DNA of 64,000 nucleotides from Siphonodentalium dalli (lineage: Eukaryota > Mollusca > Scaphopoda > Gadilida > Siphonodentaliidae). The DNA lies in NCBI GenBank assembly GCA_032622095.1, contig CP136066.1, positions 56,450,609 to 56,514,608 on the forward strand, given 5' to 3'. A program made the position numbers and the translations under genes. The notes beneath the pieces were generated by a model, which ran no database searches, was not told where the DNA came from, and saw only the letters and a list, made by a program, of their open reading frames with translations. How positions within the stretch are numbered: the stretch's first letter is position 1; every line of letters begins with the position of its first letter. Shown one piece after another: positions 12,169 to 34,900 of the stretch.

Positions 12169-15100
12169 GTAAGTAAACTCTGTCGTGAGCTGTCGATTAT
12201 GATCATAAATGTAATGAATGTATATACAGGGAGTGACTAAATTGTCATGTGTCAGGTGTATGAGTATACCTGGTGTTCCTGCTTGGTGACTCGTGGTGGT
12301 ATGGCCATGTGAAGGTTATGTGGGTATACACACGTGTTGCTATCTGGTCACGGGCGAGAGGTATGTGTATATAGCGAGTGGCTATATGGCCATGGATGAG
12401 GTGCTGCATATGCATACACGGAGAGACTATACCGATATGACTGGGTGTATTAGTAGTATATCTTGAGTGGCTATTCGGCTATGGTGTGACAAATAGGGAT
12501 ACAGGGAGAGACATGGCCAATGTTGAGGTGAATATGTATACAAGGATTGGGTATGGTCATGTATGAGTGTTTTGAATATGTACACACGGGGTGACTATAT
12601 GGCCATAGGTCATAGTGTATTCTATATATCCATAATGATAAACTGATGGATCTGGTTTTTCCTGTAAGACTTCCCAGTCTGTGAAGGGTGACTGATTCCG
12701 ACGAGCCAAGATAGAAAGTGCGCTATGGATACAAATTTTCAATCCGTTTATATAGTTTTGATCCATTTTCATTTCTCCATACTATATATATTTGGATTAG
12801 AGTACAAATTTATACCCACAGTATGTTGTAAAGCTGAAATTTACAAAATAGGTGTTATGCACAATCATGCTAAAATAGGCCGTTGTGGTATAAAATAATA
12901 TTGAGTCAGCTTCCATATCAATTTCATTTCAGATACGGATTATGATTATAAATTTACAAAAACATTTTGTCCACGAAGCAGCGACGTCAGTGGTGTCGAT
13001 AGTAACGTGGTACGTGCCATATTTATTATATATTTGAGGAAAAGTTTGTGTGTGTGTGTGTGTGTCCGCGATGGACTCGAAAACGGCTCAACCGATTTTG
13101 ACGAAACTTGGTACGGGTATGTAGTTTGACCCGATGAGTAACATGGGCCTATCCGTTTGCCCGTGAGGCGTGACATTTACCTTCAAAACTCATATCTCGG
13201 GATCCGCTGAGCCGCAGTGCTAAATTGCCTTATACAATAACGCTCTTTATATTTCCTATATTTGGGTTGGTTAACCGAATAACGCTCTTTATTCCCTTCG
13301 GCCTTTGTATAAGAGACTGGCGAAGCGTTTGTTTACAATCAACGCAACGCTTCTACACATCTGCCATTTAATTACTGTGACTGTTCATATTTGTTTTTTT
13401 TGTTCCCTTCGGCTTTTGTATATGAGGCTGGCGAAGCGTTTGTTTACAATCAACGCAACGCTTCACTGTGACTGTTCCGATTTGTTTTAGTATGCGCATT
13501 GTTTATAAACGGTCTATCGAAATGGTATTCTCGAGACATTGACATTCTTTTTGTGAGTTCAGACTGTTTTATAGTTTACAATGCTAAATTGCCTTAATAC
13601 TGTGACTGTTCAGATTTTATACTTTACAATGAGTCGCAGTGCTAAATTGCCTTATACAACAACGCTCTTTATATTTCCCATATTTGGGTTGGTGAACCGA
13701 ATAACGCTCTTTATTCCCTTCGGCTTTTGTATAGACAGTTTTCCCTTCCTCTTAACGATTGCCATTCATATTTTGAAATACTGCCTCTTTGTACATTTTC
13801 CTTCTGTCGTAAGTTGTTGAGATTATAATATACTTTTGTCAAATATTTACCCAACTTTGTTATGGGTTTCTTTTTGTTGGTTTTAAGTCTCGCATCGGAC
13901 AGATGCCACCCAAGAAATCGAATATCGGTAAAAGAAGCAGGGACGTTCGGCGCAAGCTGACATCTCGCGCTCGTGATGAAACGGATGGGCAACGTGATCG
14001 TCGACTCGAGTCTAATAGGCCGGATTCGTCATCTCAGGTTTAAACCTGGTCTACGTAAACCTCTAGGTTTAAACCGCCGTGAGTCAGCTAAATCCATGGT
14101 TTAAACCAGAGACCGTAGGTCTAAGTGACACATTCGTCATCTCTGGTTTAAACCTGGTCCAGCCAGCCCAGCGGTTTAGTAGTAGTGTCTCTGTATCGTC
14201 GAAATAATTAATCGTACTTTCCTAATGCGGACCGCCTCGTTTTATTGATTGCGAAAGTCAATAATAACGACAGCGAGCATATTTTGATTGGAAATTTATA
14301 TGCGAGAAGCACTCACACCTATACAGTGTGCGGGGATAAGTTTTTGTCAATTTCAATATTGTTTTTGTGTTTTATAAGCTTAAACCGGCAACTAAACCAT
14401 CTAATTCGGCGGTCCAGCTAAACCATCTGTACCGAGGCTAAACCTGAGATGACGAATCCGTCTTTTCTTCATCGCGGTTTAGAATTGTCAAACAATCAGT
14501 CAAATGGTGGAGCTGTAACTAATCTCGAGTGAGGGCGTATCTAAGTGGCGACTACAGTTTGGTGTTATCATGTCACAGTTGATTCATTCGCACGCGATAA
14601 TTGAGGACGTTTCAGTAAGCATTACATGAGCCTGCCTTTTGTTCCGCTTGGTAACAGGGTAGTTTGACTGCATGCTCATATCACCGACTGGAGTTGTGAA
14701 TCAGATGGCCACTAAACGACAAAAACGCCCACTTAGACCCGGTTTGGTTGGACCGCCAATGGGGGTTTAAACCAGGTTTAAACTCGGAGGTTTAAACCGG
14801 AGATGACGAATCGGGCAATAGAGTTCAAACACAAGCTTCTCGAGCGGTATAAACGGATGAGCAACGCGACCGTTGACTCGAGTCTAATTTTGTTCAAACA
14901 CAAGCTTCTCGAGCGGTAGAAACGGATGAGCAACGCGACCGTCGACTAGAGTCTAATAGAGTCCAAATACAAGCTTCTCGAGCGGTAGAAACAGACGAAC
15001 AACGCGAACGTCGAACAGAAACTGGCAATGGCACACGACTGGCGAGTCTAAACTTCCCATCTAAGGGTAAAAAACCACGGGAATGGTCGTCGCGGCGTTT

Positions 15101-18100
15101 TGGAGAAGCTCCGAGCACCCGTTCTTCACTCCCAGTCACAATGACAATGAGCGTATGCGTGTAATGTGATTCTTACGTCTGGGTCCACACGCCAGCGTAA
15201 CTATATCAAGACATGAGCGTGTTGTGTGATTCTTACGTACTTAGGGCTTCCTAGGAACGGGTGAGATTTTCATCGGGTCAGTTTTTCCGCCCGAGGTGAT
15301 CTTCACCTTGAAACGGGTACCCACAAATGATATATATGTGTGTGTCCTTTATAGACTCAAACCGATTGAGCTCAAACTTGCTACCTACGGGAAGTGTCAT
15401 GGACGGGTTAAATTGTGACACCGACCTGATCAATTCAAGGTCAAATCGGGTAAAATTGAAAAACAAAAAATTAAATTAACAAATTAAAAAGGCACATTGA
15501 AAAACACAAAATTAAATTAAAAATTAATTAAAAAAATTAATTGAAAAAGCCAGTAAATTAAAAAGGCACAATTAACTCATTGAAAAACACCAAATTAAAT
15601 TAATAAATTAATTAAAAACATTAATGTTTCTGTCGATTGCCGCCAGTGGCGGGCTAACCTGCTAGTCTATCTCATATATATTTTGAAGACCTCTGTTTGT
15701 TTGTTTGTTTGTCTGTCTGTCTGTCTGTCATTTATACAAATCTACGATTCTCGACCGATCGGGACGAAACTTGGTACGTGTGTGTAGTTTGACCAGGCGG
15801 TGAACGTTGTCGTATTGGCGAGCCCGTGCGGCGCCCGCTTCGCGCATGCGCAGACGAGATCTCGGAAACGGGCGGAGCTATCGACTTGAAATTTGCTATG
15901 TGAATGTATCTTGCCCCGGATACGAATTTTATCGGGTCGCCGAGCCCGTGCGACACCAGCTTCGCGCATGCGCAGACGAGATCTCGGAAACGGGTGGAGC
16001 TATCGACTTGAAATTTGGTTTTTGAATAGCCCGGACAACGTCGGGCTCATCGGCTAGTCTCTTCTATATATTTTGAGAACTCCTTGTATTCGAGAGATAG
16101 CCCACACCCTCCGGACCTCAATGATATGATCGTGAATGAGTATTGATATACCCCACTAAACTTTGACAAACACCAGTAATGGTGTGTAGATCATTTACAT
16201 ATCTCTCCTATATATTTTGATACAATCTATCTAATTTACATATCTCTCTTATATATTTATGTTTGTGTGTGTGTTGTACTTCATACAAATCTACGATTCT
16301 CGACCGATCGGGACGAAACTTGGTACGTGTGTGTAGTTTGACCAGGCGGTGGTCGTTGTCGTATTGGCGAGCCCGTGCGACGCCCGTGCAGCGCATGCGC
16401 AGACGAGATCTCGGAAACGGGTGGAGCTATCGACTTGAAATTTGCTATGTGAATGTATCTTGCGCCGGGTACAAATTTTATCGGGTCGCCGAGCCCGTGC
16501 GACGCCCGTGCAGCGCATGCGCAGACGAGATATCGGAAACGGGTGGAGCTATCGACTTGAAATTTGCTATGTGAATGTATCTTGCACCGGGTACAAATTT
16601 TATCGGGTCGCCGAGCCCGTGCGACGCCCGTGCAGCGCATGCGCAGACGAGATCTCGGAAACGGGTGGAGCTATCGACTTGAAATTTGGCATGTGAATGT
16701 ATCTTGCGCCGGGTACAATTTTTCATGCACAGACCAGATCTCGGAAACTGGTGGAGCTACCGGGTACAAATTTTTCTTATTGAAACGCGTGGAGCTAAAA
16801 ATGTTAAAAATATATATATAAATGTCATGTTTCGGACAAGCCGCCGGTGGCGGGCTAACCTGCTAGTACTATATATTTTGAGACTTCCGTATATACAAGT
16901 ATATATATATAAGTATATATGTACTTCATAGAATCGAAAACGGTTCGCTCGATTGAGTTCAAACTTCCCATCTAAATGTAAAAAACCACGGGAATCGTCG
17001 TCGCGGCGTTTTGGAGAAGCTCGGAGCACCGTTTCTCCCTTCCCAAATCACCGCAATCGGCACCGCGGTGGTTAATCAAGTCATAATTTAATGAGCGTTT
17101 GTTTTTGACGCATCGCTATAAAGAGCGTTTGTTTACCATTCAACGTTATTAGCATCTGCAGAGAGATTGTAGCCTGTCGCTCGAAATATTATGCAGAGAG
17201 ATTTTCACGACGGGAAGCGTTTGTTTTCAATTCAATGCAATTTTATCCCTCGAAATATTATGCAGAGAGATGATTTCACGACGGGAAGCGTTTGTTTTCA
17301 ATTCAATACAATGTTATCGTACTGAGCGTCTATATACACGACGAGTATAAATACGGCTCCATTGACCGTCTCAATGCGAAATTTCGTACTTAATTTCGTA
17401 CTTAGGAGTTCCAAGGAACGGGAAGATTTTCATCGGGTAAGTTTTTTCCGCCCGAGGTGATCTTCACCTTGAAACGGGTACCCACAAATGATATATATGT
17501 GTGTGTCCTTTATAGACTCGGACCGATTGAGCTCAAACTTGGTGTCTACGGGAAGTTTCATGGACGGGTTAAATTGTCACCCGACCTGACCTTGACCTTG
17601 CAAATGATCAATTCAAGGTCAAATCGGGTAAAAGAATTAATTAAAAAACGCCAGAAATAAAAAAAACATAAATTATATTTAAAAAACATTAAATTAAAAA
17701 AATAACAATATAAATAAAAACAAAATAATTTTAAAAATGTCATGTTTCGGACAAACGCCGCCGGGGGCGGGCTAACCTGCTAGTCTACTATATATTTTGA
17801 GAACTCCGTATACATATGTGTGTGTATGTGTGTATATATATACTTTATAGAATCGAAAACGGCTGGACCGATCGAGACCAAACTTCCCATCTAAGGGTAA
17901 AAACCCACGGGACGCGTCGTCCCGCCGTTTCTGAGAAGCTCCGAGCACCCCTTCTCCACTCCAAGTAACAAAAAACGGCACTGCGGGGGTTAATCGCGTT
18001 GATAGTTAAAGCGCGTTCGTATCCGCAGTGTCGTTGATAAAGAGCGTATGCGTGTAGTGTGATTCTTACGTCTGGGTCCAGACGTGAGCGTGACTGTATC

Positions 18101-21100
18101 CAGACGTGTGATTCTTACGCACTTAGGGGTTCCTAGGAACGGGGATCGGGTCAGTTTTTCCGCCCTAGGTGATCTTCACCTTGAAACGGGTACCCACAAA
18201 TTGTATATATTTGTGTGTCCTTTATAGACTCGAACCCATTGAGCTCAAACTTGCTACCTACGGGAAGTGTCATGGACGGTTTAAATTGTGACCCGACCTA
18301 ACCTTGACCTTGAAATCGATCAATTCAAGGTCAAATCAGGTAAATCGACGAAATTTTACACCTAGGTGCATCATACGTGTCTCGGAAACTGTTGTAATTG
18401 CTTTTTCGAACAAAGCCATGAGACGAACCACGCCAGTGGCGGGCTAACCTGCTAGTCTACTATATATTTTGAGAACTCCATATATATGTGTGTATATATA
18501 TATGTGTGTATGTGGGTACTTCATAAAACGGCTGGTCGGATCGAGCTCAAATTTCGTATATAAGGGTAAAAACCCACGGGGATCGTCAACGACAAGCTCT
18601 GAGCACTCATTCTCCACTCCCAATAATCAAAATTACCGCAAACGGCACTTCGGGGGTTAAGGCATTAACGATCTTTATATTGACCGTATTTGGAGTTGTT
18701 AACCGACCAACGCTCTTTATTGCCATCGACGTTGCTAAAGGTTACACATGCGTACGAAACTACGGACGCAAAACGCGAAATGCATTTATCTCGATTAAAA
18801 ATGCAGAATTAACGTGTTGTGTTATTCTTATGTCTGTCGTTCCTAGGAACGGGGGAAATTTTCAATCATACCTCTTTTAGGGACCGGTACTGCGTGTTGT
18901 GTGAAAACAAAAAATGCGTGTTGTGTGATTCTTATGTCTGTCGTTCCTAGGAACGGGGGGAAATTTTTATCGGGTCAGTTTTTCCACCCGATGTACCTTA
19001 AATCATACCTCTTTTAGAGACGGGTACTGCGTGTTGTCTGATTTTTATGTCTTCTTCACCTTAATCGGGTAAAATAAGGTCTAATCGGGTAAAATATTGA
19101 AAAACCAAAAATTAAATAAAAAAATTAATAAAACAAATTAATTAAAAAATCCAGTAAATTAAAAATGCACAATTAACTCATGTTATAAACACAAAATTTA
19201 TATTAACTCATTGAAAACAAAAATTAAATTCAAAAATTAATTAAAAAATTAATTAAAAAAATTAAAACTTGTCATGTTTCTGACGAACGCCGCAAGTGGC
19301 GGGCTTACCTGCTAGTCTACTATATATTTTGAGAACTACGTATACATATAAATATATAAATATATGTGTCCTTTATAGACTCGAAAACGGCTGGACCGTT
19401 TGGGCTCAAACTTCCGATCTAAGGGTAAAAACCAACGGAAATCGTCGTCGCGGCGTTTTGGAGAAGCTCAGAGCACACGTTCTCCACTCTCATTCACAAA
19501 AAATGGCACTTTGGGGGTAATAGCGTTGATAGTTAAAGAGCGTTCCTATCTGCAGTGTTGTTGATAAAGATCTTCCATATTTGGGTTCGTTAACCGGTTA
19601 ACGCTCTTTATTCCCTTCGGCTTTCGCATACGGCGTTTGTTTACGTTATCTGGAACTTGCTTCCTAGGAACGGGGACATTTTCATCGGATTTAATTCACA
19701 TTCACAACACCTAGCAGGGAAAAATATCTATTAGCCAGCATCAAGGCGAGTCTTGTGATGTATTAATTCATATGTTTCGATCAAACAATATTCTCTGTCG
19801 CACTCATATTTCGTCATCTCTAAGAACGCAACACATGGTACCAACATGGTACCAAAAATAAAAAATAAAATAAAAAAATTCATTACTGAAAAACAAAAAA
19901 TGAAATTAAAAAATTAATTAAGAACATTAAAAATTGTCATGTTTCTGACGATCGCCGCCAGTGGCGGGCTCACCTGCTAGTCTCATATATATTTTGAAGA
20001 CCTCTGTTTGTATGTTTGTATGTTTGTCATTTATACAAATCTACGATGCTCGACCGATCGGGACGAAACTTGGTACCTGTGTGTAGTTTGACCAGGCGGT
20101 GGACGTTGTCGTATTGGCGTGCCCGTGCAGCGCCCGTGCAGCGCATGCGCAGACGAGATCTCGGAAGCGGGTGGAGCTATCGACTTGAAATTTGGTATGT
20201 GAATGTATCTTGCTCCGGATACGAATTTTATCGGGTCGCCGAGCCCATGCGACGCCAGCTTCGCGCATGCGCAGACCGGATCTCGGAAACGGGTGGAGCT
20301 ATCGACTTGAAATTTGGTATGTGAATGTATCTTGCCCCGGATACGAATTTTATCGGGTCGCCGAGCCCGTGCGACGCCAGCTTCGCGCAAGCGCAGACCA
20401 GATCTCGAATACGGGTGGAGCTATCGACTTGAAATTTGGTTTTTGAATAGCCCGGACAACGTCGGGCTCATCGGCTAGTCTCATATATATTTTGAAGACC
20501 TCTGTCTGTATGTTTGTTTGTCTGTATGTTTGTTTGTCATTAATACAAATCTACGATTCTCGGCCGATCGGGACGAAACTTGGAACGTGCGTGTATTTTG
20601 ACCAGGCGGTCGACGTTGTCGTATTGGCGAGCCCGTGCGGCGCCCGGGCAGCGCATGCGCAGACGAGATCTCGGAAACGGGTGGAGCTATCGACTTGAAA
20701 TTTGGTTTTTGAATAGCCCGGACAACGTCGGGCTCATCGGCTAGTCTCATATATATTTTGAAGACCTCTGTCTGTATGTTTGTTTGTCTGTATGTTTGTT
20801 TGTCATTAATACAAATCTACGATTCTCGGCCGATCGGGACGAAACTTGGAACGTGCGTGTATTTTGACCAGGCGGTCGACGTTGTCGTATTGGCGAGCCC
20901 GTGAGGCGCCCGGGCAGCGCATGCGCAGACGAGATCTCCGAAACGGGTGGAGCTATCGACTTGAAATTTGCTATGTGAATGTATCTTGCCCCGGATACGA
21001 ATTTTATCGGGTCGTCGAGCCCGTGCGACGACAGCTTCGCGCATGCGCAGACGAGATCTCGGAAACGGGTGGAGCTATCGACTTGAAATTTGGTATGTGA

Positions 21101-24100
21101 ATGTATCTTGCCCCGGATACGAATTTTATCGGGTCGCCGAGCCCGTGCGACGCCAACTTCGCGCATGCGCAGACCAGATCTCGGAAACGGGTGGAGCTAT
21201 CGACTTGATATTTGGTTTTTGAATAGCCCGGACAACGTCGGGCTCATCGGCTAGTCTATTATATATTTTGGAAGATCTGTCTGTCTGTGTGTCTGTCTGT
21301 GTGTCTGTTTCCAATGGACTCGAAAACGGCCGAGCCGATTTCGATGAAACTTGGTATGTGGGGGTATTTTCGGCCGGGGAGTGACATGGGCCTTTTAATT
21401 TGCCCCGTGCGACGTGACCTTGGCCTTGAAATCGGGTCATTTCAATGTCAAACGCACGAATATCACGGGATTTCGATGAAACTTGATATGTGGGGGTATT
21501 TTCGGCCGGGCAGTATCATAGGCCTATTAATTTGCCCGTGCGACGTGACCTTGACCTTGAAATCGAGTCATTTCAAGGTCAAACGCCCGAATATCACGGG
21601 ATTTTTATGAAACTTGGTATGTGGGGGTACTTTCGTATGGGGAGCCTCATGATCATATTCATTTGCCCGTGCGACGTGACCTTGAAATCGGGTCAATTCA
21701 AGGTCAAATCGCGAATTTTGATGGGATTTCGACGAAATTTGATACGAAGGGTTACTTTTGTCCACTGAGTGTATTGGACGGGTCGAGTCTTGACCTAACC
21801 TTGACCTTCAAAATGATCAATTCGAGGTCAAATCGGGTAAAACCGGATGGATTTCGACGGGTACTTTTGTCGGGTACTTTTGTTCGGGCAGTGTTTTGGA
21901 CGGGTCAAATCGTGACCCCACCTGACCTTGGCCTTCAAAATGGACAATTCAAGGTCAAAGGTCTATTATATATTTTGGAAGATCTGTGTGTGTGTGTGTG
22001 TCTGTAATCGATGGACTCGAAAACGGCCGAGCCGATTTCGATGAAACTTGGTATGTGGGGTATTTTCGACCGGGGAGTGACATAGGCCTATTAATTTGCC
22101 CGTGCGACACGACCTTGACCTTGAAAGCGGGTAATTTCAAGGTCAAACGCCCGAATATCACGGGATTTCGATGAAACTTGGTATGTGGGGTTACTTTCGG
22201 TCGGGGAGTGGCATAGGCCTATTAATTTGCCCGTGCGACGTGACCTTGACCTTGCAATCGGGTCATTTCAAGGTCAAATGCAAGAATATCACGGGATTTC
22301 GATGAAAATTAGTGTCTAGGGATACTTTCGTATGGGGTGTCTCATAAGCCTATCCATTTGTCCGTGCGACGAGACCTTGACCTTGAAATCGGGTCAATTC
22401 AAGGTCAAATCGCGAATTTTGATAGGATTTCCACGAAATTTTATACATAGGGTTACTTGTGTCCACTGAGTGTTTTGGACGGGTGACCCCGAACTGACCT
22501 TGACCTTCAAAATGATCAATTCAAGGACAAATCGGGTAAAACCGCGTGGATTTCGACGGGTACTTTTGTCGGGAACTTTTGTTCGGGCAGTATTTTGGAC
22601 GGGTCGAATGGTGACCCCACCTGACCTTGGCCTTCAAAATGGACAATTCATGGTCAAAGCCCGGACGAAGTCGGGTCACCTTCTAGTATATATATATTTA
22701 TTATGTCAGAGCTATGGAGGCACGGACTCAGTATGAGTGTTCATTGCTTCATATTTGCGTGAACAAATTCTCATTTCTTATCGAAATGGCCATGTGTCGA
22801 TCGGAATGGTACATTGAGATGTTCATCGAACCATATCAAGCTTGAAAACCGGTCCCGATTTTCACCAATGCCGGGGTTCGAACCCGCGCCAACCTCGTCT
22901 AGCCCAGACTGTGATGATCTTATCCACGACCTAACCACCTCGGCTACGGGGACATCCTTTTAAAAAGGAAGCCCTTTCACCGAGAGTTAGGAAGCGTATC
23001 AGTCTGAACATGGGTTCGAACCCACTACCTTCGAAATTCTTGATATGCCATTCCGGAAACATATCAATGCACTTCCTCCGAAATTGCATCATTCTGTGAC
23101 CATACGATTACTGGTACTGGCGTATATATATTTATTATGTCAGAGCTATGGAGGCACGGACTCAAACTTGCTGTGTAAGGGTAAAAATCCACAGGCAGTG
23201 TATTCGGACCATTCGCGAGCCCGTGCGACCACTCTTTCACCCTTCATCTGCCACCGTAATGGGGATTGATGTGTTAATCGCGTGATAATTAATGAGCGTT
23301 TGTATATGAGGCGTCGCTATTAAAGTGCGTTTCGTATAAATTCGGCTGAATCGACCGTCTAGGAAACTCGGGATATCGAGACGAAATTTCGTACTTAGAG
23401 CTTCCAATGGACGGGGGAGATTTTCGTCGGGTCAGTTTGTCCGCATGATGTGACCTTGACCTTGAACCGGGTACCCACAAATGACCTTGGGCGATATCTC
23501 GGTGGTCAGGGTGACATCGACGTGAAATTTGTTATGTATGGTCAACTCGGGACGGGGAATATTTTTGTCGGGTTATATGATAGCATGCTGTTTGTGTGCC
23601 TGTACGGGGTTACCTTGAAAAACAAAAATTAATGAATCGACCAAAGCCATGGGACCAATCCCGCCAGTGGCGGGCTTATCTGCTAGTTGTAATATATAGA
23701 GAGTAATAAATTGGTTAGGAGAATTACGTGAAATAATTCACGAGTTTCTGACCCAGAAACGGGGTCCGTCCGTCCGTTCGTCCGTCCGTCCGTCGAGCCG
23801 GCCGTCCGTCCGTCACACTTTTAAGTACCTTCATGGTGTAATCATCTCCTTCTACAGATTTCATCCCAGAGATTTGAAACTTCAGAATATTGTTGCCCAT
23901 ATATTTAAGATGTGCAACATGTATATAGATGACGGAAAAATAGTTTTTGACGGAGTTATTAAGCCTTTTTGACTTAGAAAATTTCAACATTTTTTATAAT
24001 TTTCTGTGTGAGGGTACCTTCGTGGTGTAATCAACTGCTCCTACAGTAGATATTTGAAACTTCAGAGTATTGTTACCCACATATTGGCGATGTGCAGTAT

Positions 24101-25980: not shown

Positions 25981-28900
25981 CTAAAACAACAACAACCACA
26001 GCTATGTACTTTAATCACTGGCATCCAACTTAAGGTTAATCAGTCGGATAACAGAGCAGCGTCTATATACGTAAGGAAACTACGTCTTTCAAATTTAGTA
26101 TGTCGTCTAGAATATCAATAATCGCGTGTTCTATACTTGTAAATTTCTTAAGCATGGACCGATTTCTAGCCTCATCTAAACATTCACATTCCATCAAATA
26201 ATGCATTTCATCTCCAAGTTGATGTTTATGGCACAGGGGACACAGTCTACGAAGTACAGTTGTTTCGTTCCAACGTCCTTTCTCTATTGGCAGATGGTGG
26301 TTACTAGTTTGGAATTGACAGAGAGTTATTCTATTCTTTGTATCCAAACAGCTCAGGTATCTTTCGAAATGTATATCATGTTTAAAAATCTTATAAGTGT
26401 TACCTCTGCTAGAATTTTCTATATCAGATAACCAGATGGTTCGGAATTTACTATTTAAACTGCATTTGAAATATGATGTTAATTTTTCTGGACATGAAAT
26501 ATTCTCCATGTTCCACAGATGAATCTGTCCACAATATGTTAGGATGTTCTTTATTTTTTCTATCCACTGAAATTTCACTGACGAAGCATCGCATACTTTC
26601 AGGGATAGTAAATACAAAAGTTTGCAAAATCTGTTCTGGTTCATATTCTTAATTTTCATCCAATATTTCACAATACGCAAGTTGATTGTGTATTCAATAG
26701 GCAGCCTACCGCTCTCGCCATATAACATATAATTGGGGTAGACGACCTCAGATGGAGAACATGTCTTATAAATGTTCTGTGTATAACTTCAAACATATCA
26801 TTATTCCCTGATCCCATACCTCGCAACAATACAGCATGATTGGTAACACTTGTGCATCAAACAATTCAAAGTTATTTTTAATTGACAAGCAGTGTGTTCT
26901 CGATTTTGAAATAATGGAATACATTGCCTTATTTGCTATATTCAGCAAAGTCTTTTTTGCACCCGAGTACGACCCTGATTTTGTATGAATAATTCCAAGA
27001 TAGTTAAAGTTCTTGACTACTTCAATTTTCTGATCTTTGTATGTAAATGTCCTATTTTTAGGCAAGCTTCGTTTAGAAATCAACAGTATTTTGGTTTTCT
27101 CAATGTTGACATTTAACTTCCACTTCTCGCAATACCGTTTGAAGCTACTAAGTGCTTTCTGCAAATGTAACGGTGTTTCAGCCATAAGTACGGTGTCATC
27201 TGCGTATAAAATAATGAATAGTTTGACATATGTCTGCAAATGGGTTTCTATATCCCGTGACATTTTGGACCAACCTCGGAGACCGTCCGAGTTGAGAAAA
27301 TCCTCAAGATCATTTAGGTAAAGTGAAAAAAGCAGGGGTGATAGGTTTTACGCCTTGTCGTATGCCAGACAAACATGGGAAACAATCGGATGTTGTATTA
27401 CCCATACGAACTTTCGACTTAATGTTTGTGTACATGTTTCTAACAACCGCGAGTAGCTTTCCGTTTACGCCATTACTCAGGAGTTTGTGCCATAGCCCTT
27501 TCCTCCATACCTTATCAAATGCTTTCTCGAAATCAATGAATGCGCAATAAATATTCCTATTAAGTGCCTTTGTGATTTCCGTTAACATATGTAAAACAAA
27601 TATGTTATCTGTTGTTGAATAGCCTTTTCGAAAACCCGCCTGGTTCTCAAGGAGAACCTCATTTTCTTCAATATAAGAATACAATCTATTCGAAAGAATC
27701 TTCGTAAACAATTTGCCAAAGCAGCTCAAAAGAGTGATAGGTCTATAGTTTTTTGGATCTCCCTTGTTACCTTTCTTCTTATAGAGCGGAATGATAGTTC
27801 CAATTTCCCATATGTCTGGTACACAGCCTGATTCGAAAACTAAGTTAAATATTTTACAATATATGTCGATAAGGGTGTCAGAGGATGCCTTGATATATTC
27901 ATTTATAATTCCGTCTTCTCCAGGGGACTTATTGTTTTTTAAACTCTTGATAGCTAACATGATTTCTTCTTTGCTTATTGGTCGATTTAGTTGGTCGTTT
28001 GTGTTACTTGTCTCAATGTTCATACATGTATCTAAGTCATCTGTGGTTGATTCAGAATTAAGTAATCGGAAATGTTCTTCAAAATTGTCTATGTCAACTG
28101 AGTTATTTGATACTATATCTCGCTTATTAAGTTTAGACCAGAATTTTCTTGAATTTTCTATTTTTAGTTTTGATAATTCACGTGTGATATTCTCCCTATG
28201 TATTGCTATTGCATTGTCCATTTCTCGTTTGTATCCCCTACTCATTTCAAGCATCAGTTGTCTTGATCTATTGTTTTGCTTTCGCTTGTGATATCTCTTG
28301 GATTTACGGGAGACACTTAGCAGAACATTATATCTATATTGATCATATTTGGAGTCTAATCGACTTAAAATTCACGGATTTACAGGTGAAAAAGTAAAAA
28401 ACATCCTGCCATTTGCAGATGTGAGAAGATATGCCTAGTCCTTCAATGCAAGGATGGCATTGCTGTTAAAATAGCCACACCAGTTAAGACCTCCGTAAAC
28501 ACAAAGAATGTTAAACTATAGACATATTTTGTTCTTACACCAATCATAAATAGCATGTTATTGTCAAGATCGTACGCGGTGTCAGTAAGGGTACGTTCAC
28601 ACACTGGCAAGTTTGCACGGTATGGTTTGCATGAATTTTGTCGTAGATATGCAACGATATGGTGCCATAATATGAACGAAAACAAGCACATAACGTGCAT
28701 CTGTTCCACAGCTAACTACGTACGAAGTACACCATCTGTAGTTCCACTATTAACGATGCTCCCGGCATTTGCCTGTAAATATCATGCAATTATCTCGCAA
28801 GAATAAATCATGCAGGTATTTGAAGGCAAATTACAATAGCACTGTTACAAGTGGAATTAGATAAATGTTACTTCTAAAGTTCTCACGTCTGTCACTTTGG

Positions 28901-31900: not shown

Positions 31901-34900
31901 TGTAAATATTTACATCTCGATTCGGGACGCAACAAACGGCGATAAACGAACGCAAATGATTTCGCCACCGAGAGTCATTGAATTTAATTGATATATAAGA
32001 ATGACGGTGTGTGTTGTAAATTTTGATTTATATTCGCAAAAATAACTACTTTGAACAAGATTATTCTACATTTCTATTTGGCCACCCTATATATCTAAGT
32101 GTTTCACATCACTTTAAGCAAGGTCGCTCGTACTGTTTCTGTTTCGCATCACCTATATGCGTTGATAAGGATATACATGATTATGAGCAGTGAAAGATAT
32201 TGTCAGTATCATGGCCACATAGTGGCTGTACCTTCCCCTGTCCTCGGGGAGCAGCATGCACATGTGCTTGTAACAATTTATATATATATATATAATATTA
32301 ACACTAAAGGTTGGTCACTGGGGGGGGGGGGTGATATTGAGTAGCCATTGTTGATGCGGCCGTTTAGGGGTTATAATGGGCACCGATTTTGTTCGGATAA
32401 ACGGCAAAATGTATGATGTCTTATACGATAACAAACAGATTAATATGCGAATTTTGCAACCGTGTGCCCTCTCTTCTTGAGTTTGACAATATTTGGTATT
32501 AATGACTGTTTTCAACGACAAAACATTGGAGATTGATCGGGAATCCATCCGCATTCCATCGCGATACCGCAGTGAATTTATTGATGTTCACCGATTGGCG
32601 GAGCTATTTGTGGATTATTTGCGAGAAATTTGAACTTACTTTCGGGTTACAACTTCGAGTTTGATGAAGTGCTCGCTGCCGCCGTTGATCCAAGGCGACA
32701 AACATCTCCCCCACTTGCGTTGAGGTCGTAATACCATTTGTTGAGGTAAGTGGATTTGCCTGTGCCCGCCTGTCCAGTGAGCAACACATTGCATTTTGTC
32801 ATAACGGTGGCATTCATTTTTGATAACATCATGCCGTCTTATTTATAAACAAAGTCAGGTGACATTCGGACAAAAACAAAGAAGTATTTTTGCAATTCGG
32901 CTAATCAGTTGACAGCTACAATTCACTGTTATCATTCCGGAAAAAATATTGTCTAGTCACTTATATAAAATCATCTAATGTATCAAATACAAACAATTTT
33001 TATTGGAATAAGGAAATAAGAAACATATGAAGTGATCACCGCATATTATTCTGTTTGTACACGTAAGTTATTGTACATTTAGCCGTTTACCCGAATTAAA
33101 TCGGTGCAGATTAACCCCCGTCGGCCAAGGCGCCAAACCAAATTTGAATATTGCCGACAGAGAGACCGACCTTCCATTTTATATAAAGTAATAAAATGTT
33201 TGTTACAGGTACCTGTGGGGAGCAGTATATACCTAATGAGTGATCGGGCTCATCAGCATGCATTGGAACGGTGTACCTTATAGAATACGTGTAATAAATG
33301 GATCGTTTACAATCGGTTATTATTATGGGACATGTTCAGATAATAAGTTCTACAAACGACAATTTATTTAACTTATTATCTAAACATTTCCCTCAATAAA
33401 TAGGACTCCTTCTGTATTTGTATTTATCGGTCATCTACTTATATTGCATGCATCCGTTCAAATCAATAATAGACCATTCCGATGTTCATATTTTAGCTGA
33501 CTGGGAGAATGCATCGTGTACATAAAGGGCTAATATCACTGGGGCAAACTCAACTGCATGTAGAAAAGCACATACCCCGCTAACTTCCTGAATTGTTGCG
33601 AAAACCCTGTGCCAATGCATTCTCTAATAACCATAGGTCGCCTCGCATATATAATAGAATGTATTGGCCTAACAAATTCTATATTATTTTTTATAATTGT
33701 TAAAGAATGTAAGAAAACATGAAAAACATGATAAAATATTGTTAAAGAATGTAAGAAAAAATGAAATATGTGATAAAAAATTGTTAAAGAATGTAAGAAC
33801 TAATGATAAAAAATTATAACAATTGTGGCACATTTGCCCTTTTTAATTCATGTTTTTTTACTATCATTATATCAAGGTATTATGCAGCGCAGTTCCTGTG
33901 TACCTTCAGTCGCAGTGTCCGTCCAAAGCTTATATCACTGACAGCAAATTCTTCGTGTTCATCCAATGTTAACGACTACCTTGTGGTGCAGTATCCCAAA
34001 CTTCAGCCCGAAAAAATCGCGACCTGCGTCCATGCCATACACAGTAAACCGAATGTTCGGATGGTGGCTGAATGGATCACATACCAGCAAATGATGGGGT
34101 TAGATAGGGTCTTCATATTCGTCCTCGATCCAACTCATCGGGTCATGGATCTTCTGGCTTATTTCCAGGGATTCGTCGAAATTATGATGCTCGAGTTACC
34201 TGGTACAGTTCAAGGTATGTTCACAACTATGGTTACAGTGCGCAAATAGTGTATGCAATAAGGGTGCGTTTAAATTGGTGTACTGAAATATGTGGAGTCT
34301 TGTGTCACGGATTTCTGTGAGTATGAATACAACATGATTACTGGTAGTGAACGCGGGCTTATCAGTACTCTGGTAAGCGGTAATTCAGCCAGAGTTCGCG
34401 CCAGTTTAGGCCAGGCAGACAGATGAATACACTATCACCAGCCAACGCCATTTGATCCGTGTCGCATCACGCAGCATCGTTGCTCATAGTCTCGGCTAGA
34501 AGCATGCAGGAGAATTTGGGGCGGGTAGAAATAATAGAAATGATAGAAAAACGCACGCATTTCCCCGATAATTATGTTGCGATTAGCAGAACGATACCTG
34601 ACACAGTACTCCACACTTAGAACATATGTGTATACATTCCATTTATAGCTTAGAAAGTGTTAACAAAAGGGGGTGGCACCCTCCACTGTGCCTATTTTGT
34701 TGCATGCATCATAAGTCGCTTTGAAATTTTCACTAATTCCAATAATGTATGAAGGTTTTTTTTTCACATTTTTATTCAGGTCACAACAATATATATATAC
34801 GGCTGTATGTGCCATATGTCGCACTAAAGTGTATTGTACATGTATAACTACAATAAGGAATTGGAACAATTTCTTCTTTTTGTTTTCATTTTTCATCTGA

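Follow-up and report, generated by a model that had tools for sequence, protein, structure and literature searches.

The 64,000-nucleotide (nt) window analysed here, positions 56,450,609 to 56,514,608 of contig CP136066.1 (C6 in this study) of the scaphopod mollusc Siphonodentalium dalli, carries an array of twelve Helitron transposon units at 15047-22686. The units lie head to tail in a single orientation and their junctions are mostly exact, with the CTAG at the 3' end of one unit directly followed by the TC at the 5' end of the next (CTAG/TC). The array is probably a stack of canonical Helitrons that inserted serially, in the same orientation, at the 5' ends of resident elements.

Three types of end are present. 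Type A has the 5' end TCTACTATATATTTTGA and the 3' end GGCGGGCTAACCTGCTAG, type B has TCTCATATATATTTTGA and GTCGGGCTCATCGGCTAG, and type C has TCTATTATATATTTTGG and GTCGGGTCACCTTCTAG. From left to right the unit types are A, B, composite A', A, A, A, A, B, B, B, C and C, and the array also holds a lone four-base TCTA at 15666-15669. The features, all on the forward strand, are as follows.

15047-15665, +, A-type unit without a 5' end, 3' end GGCGGGCTAACCTGCTAG; approximately the first 90 base pairs (bp) are absent, by alignment to other A units
15666-15669, +, TCTA, read as the first bases of the 5' leader belonging to the unit at 16867, severed by later insertions
15670-16057, +, B-type unit at A^T (the caret marks the insertion point) behind the TCTA piece
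16058-16866, +, composite A' unit with several motifs resembling 5' ends (16058, 16202), a body resembling B and one A-type 3' end
16867-17783, +, A-type unit with a split leader (TAC start instead of TCTATAC)
17784-18455, +, A-type unit with exact CTAG/TC on both sides
18456-19315, +, A-type unit
19316-19980, +, A-type unit, followed by B (A to B junction)
19981-20478, +, B-type unit with 122-bp internal repeats
20479-20744, +, B-type unit of 266 bp
20745-21254, +, B-type unit, followed by C (B to C junction)
21255-21961, +, C-type unit without the 3' hairpin and CTAG; 88% identity to the next unit, last 27 bp or so absent
21962-22686, +, C-type unit with both ends present; closes the array on the right, with TATATATATA after it

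Nine junctions of the form CTAG(0-6 nt)TC..TATATATTTTG were counted in the array segment, against a maximum of 0 over 200 dinucleotide shuffles. TCT directly follows 9 of the 20 CTAG in the segment compared with 1 of 85 in the remaining window. An initial annotation, made from the letters of the window alone, had described about twelve head-to-tail units, most with a CTAG abutting the next TC, and three hairpin variants defining three subfamilies; all of this is borne out, the subfamilies being A, B and C. Its statement that the units begin TCT(C/A) applies to most of them, the exceptions being the unit at 16867, which begins TAC, and the first unit. The hairpin and CTAG that it assigned to every unit terminate 11 of the 12, that at 21255-21961 having neither. 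Several 5' ends sharing one 3' end occur within the window only at 16058-16866 and 21255-22686. End motifs similar to those of the composite A' unit also occur in an autonomous element at locus L077, described below, and such a composite is possibly an old stack that came to move as one element once its inner 3' ends were bypassed.

Target sites and split leaders

The flanks of Helitrons elsewhere in the genome were read from an initial sample of 40 fetched loci, parsed for ends, to which more flanks were later added. Cleaning removed cases with fewer than 60 flanking letters, 3' ends other than CTAG and repeats with identical 16 flanking letters. It also took out 10 of 52 downstream flanks because they were themselves Helitron 5' ends and 11 of 61 upstream flanks because a Helitron 3' end preceded them. 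In the cleaned host flanks, A immediately precedes the element in 46 of 50 cases and T immediately follows it in 39 of 42. Single units with host DNA on both sides account for 8 of 20 loci (L003, L004, L007, L009, L010, L012, L014 and L019) picked from among the B 5' ends along contig C1 between 1.0 and 9.75 Mb, and so the solo copies with A and T at their flanks, which the initial annotation had called for, do exist. L010 and L012 have both flanks in common and L003 and L004 the right flank, indicating that some loci are duplicated.

The target is asymmetric. TATATA starts within 12 nt of the insertion point in 32 of 42 downstream flanks but in 11 of 50 upstream flanks (Fisher p 2.6e-7), and is found in 2 of 42 in the matched span at +41. 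The host TATATA is most often at offset 4 (12 of 32). Reading the element sequences, the motif stands at offset 6 in the 5' ends of all three types and at offset 4 for TCTA^TACTATATA. A resident with a host A in front of it therefore resembles the target, and in one orientation only, because its own 5' end has the form T....TATATA.

These features suggest how a stack would grow. The transposase, a RepHel protein, would prefer A^T with TATATA immediately after it. Each element starts TCTNN-TATATA, so that a host A in front would give its left end the shape of a target. A new copy would then enter between A and T, just upstream of the resident 5' end or a few bases inside it; its CTAG would join the TC of the resident and its own 5' end would offer a fresh A/TCT..TATATA. 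Entry at TCTA^TAC would leave TCTA behind on the left side and TAC... on the right. Growth would be at the 5' edge, making the order of the array the order in time, with the leftmost unit the youngest. The observations that carry this reading are the A and T flanks, the asymmetric target, a complete lack of head-to-head B-B junctions, neighbours that are mostly no closer than random copies and, most directly, the split leaders. We infer that the step which produces the split leaders also produces the canonical CTAG/TC junctions, and that the arrays arise because the transposase recognizes the left-end motif.

The leader of some residents is longer, being either TCTATACTATATATTTTG, which stands intact after CTAG at L021, L024 and L091, or TCTATCTATAC... 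(L061 and L094). In the window the unit at 16867 begins TACTATATATTTTG, and when the TCTA at 15666-15669 is placed before it the result is TCTATACTATATATTTTGAGACTTCCGT, identical to the intact leaders at L021 and L024. Since the TCTA and TAC halves rejoin to an intact leader, the simplest account is that A' (16058-16866) inserted at the front of the resident at 16867 and that B (15670-16057) followed.

Is this particular to the window? The genome assembly comprises 2.23 Gb in nine contigs; the genome-wide counts given here and below are of exact matches on both strands, so that varied copies are missed. There are 253 sites at which an exact B 3' end is directly followed by TACTATATATTTTGAG. 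From 100 of these 253 that were listed, 20 were fetched, skipping clustered sites, and a B start is visible in 16. In 11 of these 16 loci TCTA immediately precedes the inserted B (L124, L126, L128, L131, L132, L133, L135, L136, L137, L139 and L140) compared with 5 of 61 control upstream flanks (Fisher p 2e-6), and two of those five controls, the window and L077, are suspected remnants themselves. At L136 the TCTA sits in a host TCTA microsatellite; L133 carries TCTATCTA, which resembles the longer intact leader. At L077 the autonomous B element of 8.7 kb sits between a TCTATCTTCTA piece and a TCTCTTC leader.

The exact head-to-tail junctions and the mixed order of subfamilies are also compatible with serial insertion at the resident 3' end, between CTAG and the host T, in which case the rightmost unit would be the youngest. 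The host TATATA half-site would remain to the right of such an array, three B starts (L005, L103 and L112) lie behind a 3' end that lacks its G, giving A^T, and part of the divergence dating discussed below leans the same way. However, this route implies a G^T target, whereas an A is present at 46 of 50 host targets, and it cannot yield the paired TCTA ... TAC split. A G-less end also precedes a host-like TATATA, at L051. We regard insertion at the 3' end as very unlikely.

Junctions, neighbours and order in time

The exact B 5' end occurs 17,429 times in the genome (reversed-pattern control 1) and the exact B 3' end 17,881 times (control 0). Exact junctions number 888 for A to A, 512 for A to B, 256 for B to A and 6,129 for B to B, the A to B and B to A figures being raw counts uncorrected for pattern bias; reversed-pattern controls are 0 for every head-to-tail junction count. 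That the array is a local accident of assembly is unlikely, because such junctions recur thousands of times in the genome assembly. Junctions leading from A or B into C number 3,108 as opposed to 369 from C into A or B, a ratio of 8.4 to 1, although the second count is partly lowered by the search pattern and the corrected ratio is perhaps nearer 5 to 1. By reading, an exact C 3' end is present in 9 of 20 loci picked for an exact C 5' start, and an exact C 5' start in 7 of 10 C units that lie upstream of B with a visible start. Among 100 listed sites leading into C the 3' end is of type B in 87, type A in 12 and another type in 1.

A head-to-head junction is what a reversed insertion at the A^T preceding a resident would produce. 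Head-to-head junctions were counted for the B-B form, and there are 0 exact cases genome-wide against the 6,129 head to tail. Insertion at A^T in either orientation was considered as a candidate and rejected on these figures.

The sets used for distances, lengths and dating hold no units of 200 bp or less, none of 3,000 bp or more (two long B elements) and none with unlike ends. Adjacent complete B pairs (n = 17) have a median distance of 0.091, compared with 0.083 for B pairs from different loci (n = 3,290), and 8,700 of 10,000 random sets of 17 have a median at or below that of the adjacent pairs. The median length difference is 132 bp between B neighbours and 126 bp between random pairs. 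Adjacent A (n = 2) and C (n = 4) pairs are not significantly closer either. In 13 B to C pairs the distances among the B members and among the C members give a Mantel r of -0.04 (700 of 2,000 permutations as large) and in 9 C to B pairs an r of -0.28 (1,757 of 2,000 as large). The 13 B to C pairs look separately assembled because B and C distances are uncorrelated, and the spread of one composite B-C element was rejected on the same ground (three of the loci involved, L067-L069, are from the C to B sample).

In which order did the units arrive? If growth is at the 5' edge, the left to right succession A..B..C means that C came first and A last. The window mostly fits this order, with one B and the composite A' among the A units as exceptions, and genome-wide the junctions leading into C outnumber those leading out of it as given above. 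Dating used divergence from consensus and terminal branches for 82 B and 32 C units; the 17 A units are too diverse for it. It is the split leaders and the A^T rule, and not this dating, that support reading order as time.

Several observations weigh against serial insertion at the 5' end. Some concern the split leaders. L122 has one without TCTA, L125 and L130 have another unit before B, and L129 and L134 sit behind a G-less 3' end, that of L129 spelling TCTA and being left uncounted; in 4 of the 20 loci (L123, L127, L138 and L141) no B start lies in the fetched range. Head-to-head junctions would be perfect palindromes and might vanish after forming. Like is favoured with like at the junctions, with an odds ratio of about 41. 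Distances below 0.04 are found in 3 of the 17 adjacent B pairs as opposed to 64 of the 3,290 from different loci, lengths agree within 12 bp in 4 of the 17 compared with 8.1% of random pairs, and non-adjacent B pairs of the same locus (n = 13) have a median distance of 0.067. Nor is the proposed order confirmed by the dating: in the 17 B-B pairs the upstream terminal branch is shorter in 10 and longer in 7 (p 0.31), the division by divergence from consensus being 8 and 9 (p 0.78). In the 4 C-C pairs the upstream branch is longer in all four and the upstream divergence larger in three. B units in C to B junctions are less diverged than those in B to C junctions (p 0.036; by branch length p 0.14), a result at odds with the stack order if divergence is read as age; the same contrast for C units is not significant (p 0.16 and 0.63). 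Finally, 701 re-insertions of the Helraiser transposon in human cells did not cluster round donor sites (PMC4778049).

The initial annotation had ascribed the array to repeated rolling-circle events, and a concatemer, in which one circle or bypass of a terminator gives several copies in a single event, is the published view of arrays in bat, Bombyx and plants (PMC4067079, PMC5876387, PMC12628747). A perfect CTAG/TC is also the junction of a Helitron circle (PMC4778049), and the preference of like for like together with the few close or near-equal B pairs would be expected from such a process. Two units of the window, at 21255-21961 with no terminator and at 16058-16866 with several 5' ends, look like products of bypass. 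Nevertheless, adjacent B units are, at the median, as different from each other as B units of different loci, whereas a concatemer calls for near-identical neighbours; even the three closest adjacent pairs differ by 142-272 bp in length. Mixed-subfamily junctions number hundreds to thousands, and split leaders are left without an account. As the main route the concatemer is not supported, and we consider it unlikely to have produced the array.

Multiplication of a first, chance pair by unequal crossing-over or segmental tandem duplication would account for periodic arrays, such as that with junctions every 3,927-3,928 bp at C1:63814202-63823566, and for the concentration of C to (A or B) sites in one 90-kb cluster on contig C2. 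It leaves unexplained the dispersed short arrays with A and T flanks, the B to C pairs with uncorrelated members and the split leaders, and most pairs lack the near-identity between neighbours that it should give. Its part is secondary, and as the origin of the arrays we hold it to be the least probable of the routes considered. A minor share of rolling-circle or duplication events is likely, because some adjacent B pairs are unusually close or near-equal in length.

We note two places where whole segments have multiplied. At C1:63814202-63823566 the junction positions repeat three times with the period given above, and this is a multi-unit segment amplified whole. At C2:103714341-103803867 at least 17 C to (A or B) junctions, among the 100 listed, lie within 90 kb, with 4 of 16 gaps measuring 1,830-1,831 bp. 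One piece is L069; this is a local satellite of Helitron stacks.

Helitron identity and autonomous partners

The units of the array are canonical (Helitron1) Helitrons that target A^T. The termini typical of these elements, 5' TC and 3' CTRR, are present as TCT... and CTAG in the window and in the fetched loci, and a hairpin shortly before the 3' end is visible on reading the A, B and C ends. Insertion is at A^T without target duplication, as the host flanks show, and the split leader is in effect an empty site within an element. Helentron or Helitron2 elements, which target TT and carry an endonuclease, were rejected as a candidate class; the flanks are A and T and two RepHel proteins have no endonuclease match in Pfam at E 0.001.

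PF14214 (Helitron_like_N) has at least 151 matches in the genome, a lower bound as 150 of 457 candidates were scored. The autonomous Rep/helicase partner with shared ends anticipated by the initial annotation is found at L077, an element of 8,675 bp with B ends at both sides (one mismatch in the 3' end) and an open reading frame (ORF) of 1,613 amino acids (aa) that combines PF14214 with PF05970 (PIF1). This is a RepHel protein, that is Rep (HUH) together with a PIF1-like helicase. A RepHel ORF of 1,693 aa lies beside a C 3' end at L079, where only that C end was seen. At L078 the 5' end is of type B, the 3' end is B-like with three mismatches, and the ORFs measure 495, 537 and 331 aa. L081 has a 933-aa ORF and only a B-like 3' end, again with three mismatches. 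L080, with an ORF of 1,603 aa, has none of the A, B or C ends, and among the five fetched PF14214 regions there is no RepHel partner with A ends.

Helitron 3' ends that read CTA without G, with either the TC of the next unit or a T directly after them, were noted at L005, L103, L112, L129 and L134, and before TATATA at L051. They are perhaps the result of imprecise 3' cleavage, one base off.

Comparison with known arrays

Head-to-tail Helitrons are known and their origin and order are disputed; what is new is that a mechanism of serial 5' insertion is better supported than before. The closest precedent is a single head-to-tail pair in maize (2008, PMC2267711), for which 5' insertion was listed as one possibility and the order was left open. 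The pair shares the CTAG/TC junction, with G/T replacing A/T, the neighbours are unlike and were taken to indicate consecutive insertion, and insertion at the A^T formed by the host A and the first T of the resident was named as an option. It differs in being one pair, and the accessible text reports no split leader, link to a target motif or genome-scale counts. In Metarhizium acridum three tandem Helitrons led to 5'-end insertion being named as a possibility (PMC5148889); in contrast to the present case the fungal Helitrons mostly grouped with Helitron2, one locus was involved and the choice between 5' insertion and rolling circle was left undecided.

Tandem arrays in Myotis lucifugus and Bombyx mori (Pritham and Feschotte 2007; Thomas et al. 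2010, cited in PMC4067079, PMC5876387 and PMC2267711) are likewise head to tail, and in the bat, according to PMC2267711, the junctions are exact; distantly related Helitrons stand side by side in bat and maize (PMC4067079). The bat and Bombyx arrays were explained by termination having been bypassed or were taken to support rolling-circle transposition (PMC4067079, PMC5876387), and head-to-tail arrays in general are cited to that end (PMC5876387). In the present arrays, by contrast, most tested neighbours are no closer than random copies and an order of insertion can be read. Plant centromeric Helitrons (Xiong et al. 2016, described in PMC12628747) are also tandem units and were amplified by rolling circle. 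Many of these have multiple 5' ends with one 3' end and are truncated, whereas here 11 of 12 units are complete at the 3' hairpin and CTAG.

Helraiser, or Helibat1, shares the TC and CTAG ends and the A^T target (PMC4778049). It has the same asymmetry, favouring AT-rich DNA most on the 3' flank, and part of its left end, close to where cleavage occurs, is AT-rich; the accessible text draws no link between left end and target. Our literature search, whose coverage mostly lay outside subscription papers, found no report of split leaders or of a left end serving as its own target.

For thousands of junctions in this genome, serial insertion at the 5' end is the better explanation. If this is true the question of order left open in maize is answered, for one genome, and a simple rule is suggested for the formation of arrays, namely that the left end resembles the target. 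Helitron arrays would then record, in order of time, when each subfamily was active, and would serve as a relative clock for transposon bursts without divergence dating. A broader proposition is that one and the same feature lets the transposase recognize both its target and its own left end, such that each insertion makes the next preferred site at the 5' edge, and that arrays elsewhere may largely be such stacks; we give this an even chance of being correct.

Some further features of the window may be mentioned. To the right of the array, at 22687-23170, a stretch of approximately 40 bp (TATATATATTTATTATGTCAGAGCTATGGAGGCACGGACTCA) flanks about 390 bp on both sides, and inside those 390 bp a GGTTCGAACCC-like tRNA B box is recognized by eye. 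Scans of the window for tRNA (ARAGORN) and against Rfam gave no matches. The segment is possibly a tRNA-derived short interspersed nuclear element within an older A-like unit that ends at 23686. Pieces of a retroelement ORF with a reverse transcriptase (RVT_1) lie on the reverse strand at 26766-28254, and a forward-strand ORF at 33803-34249 has a weak match to glycosyltransferase family 92 and is maybe the exon of a host gene.

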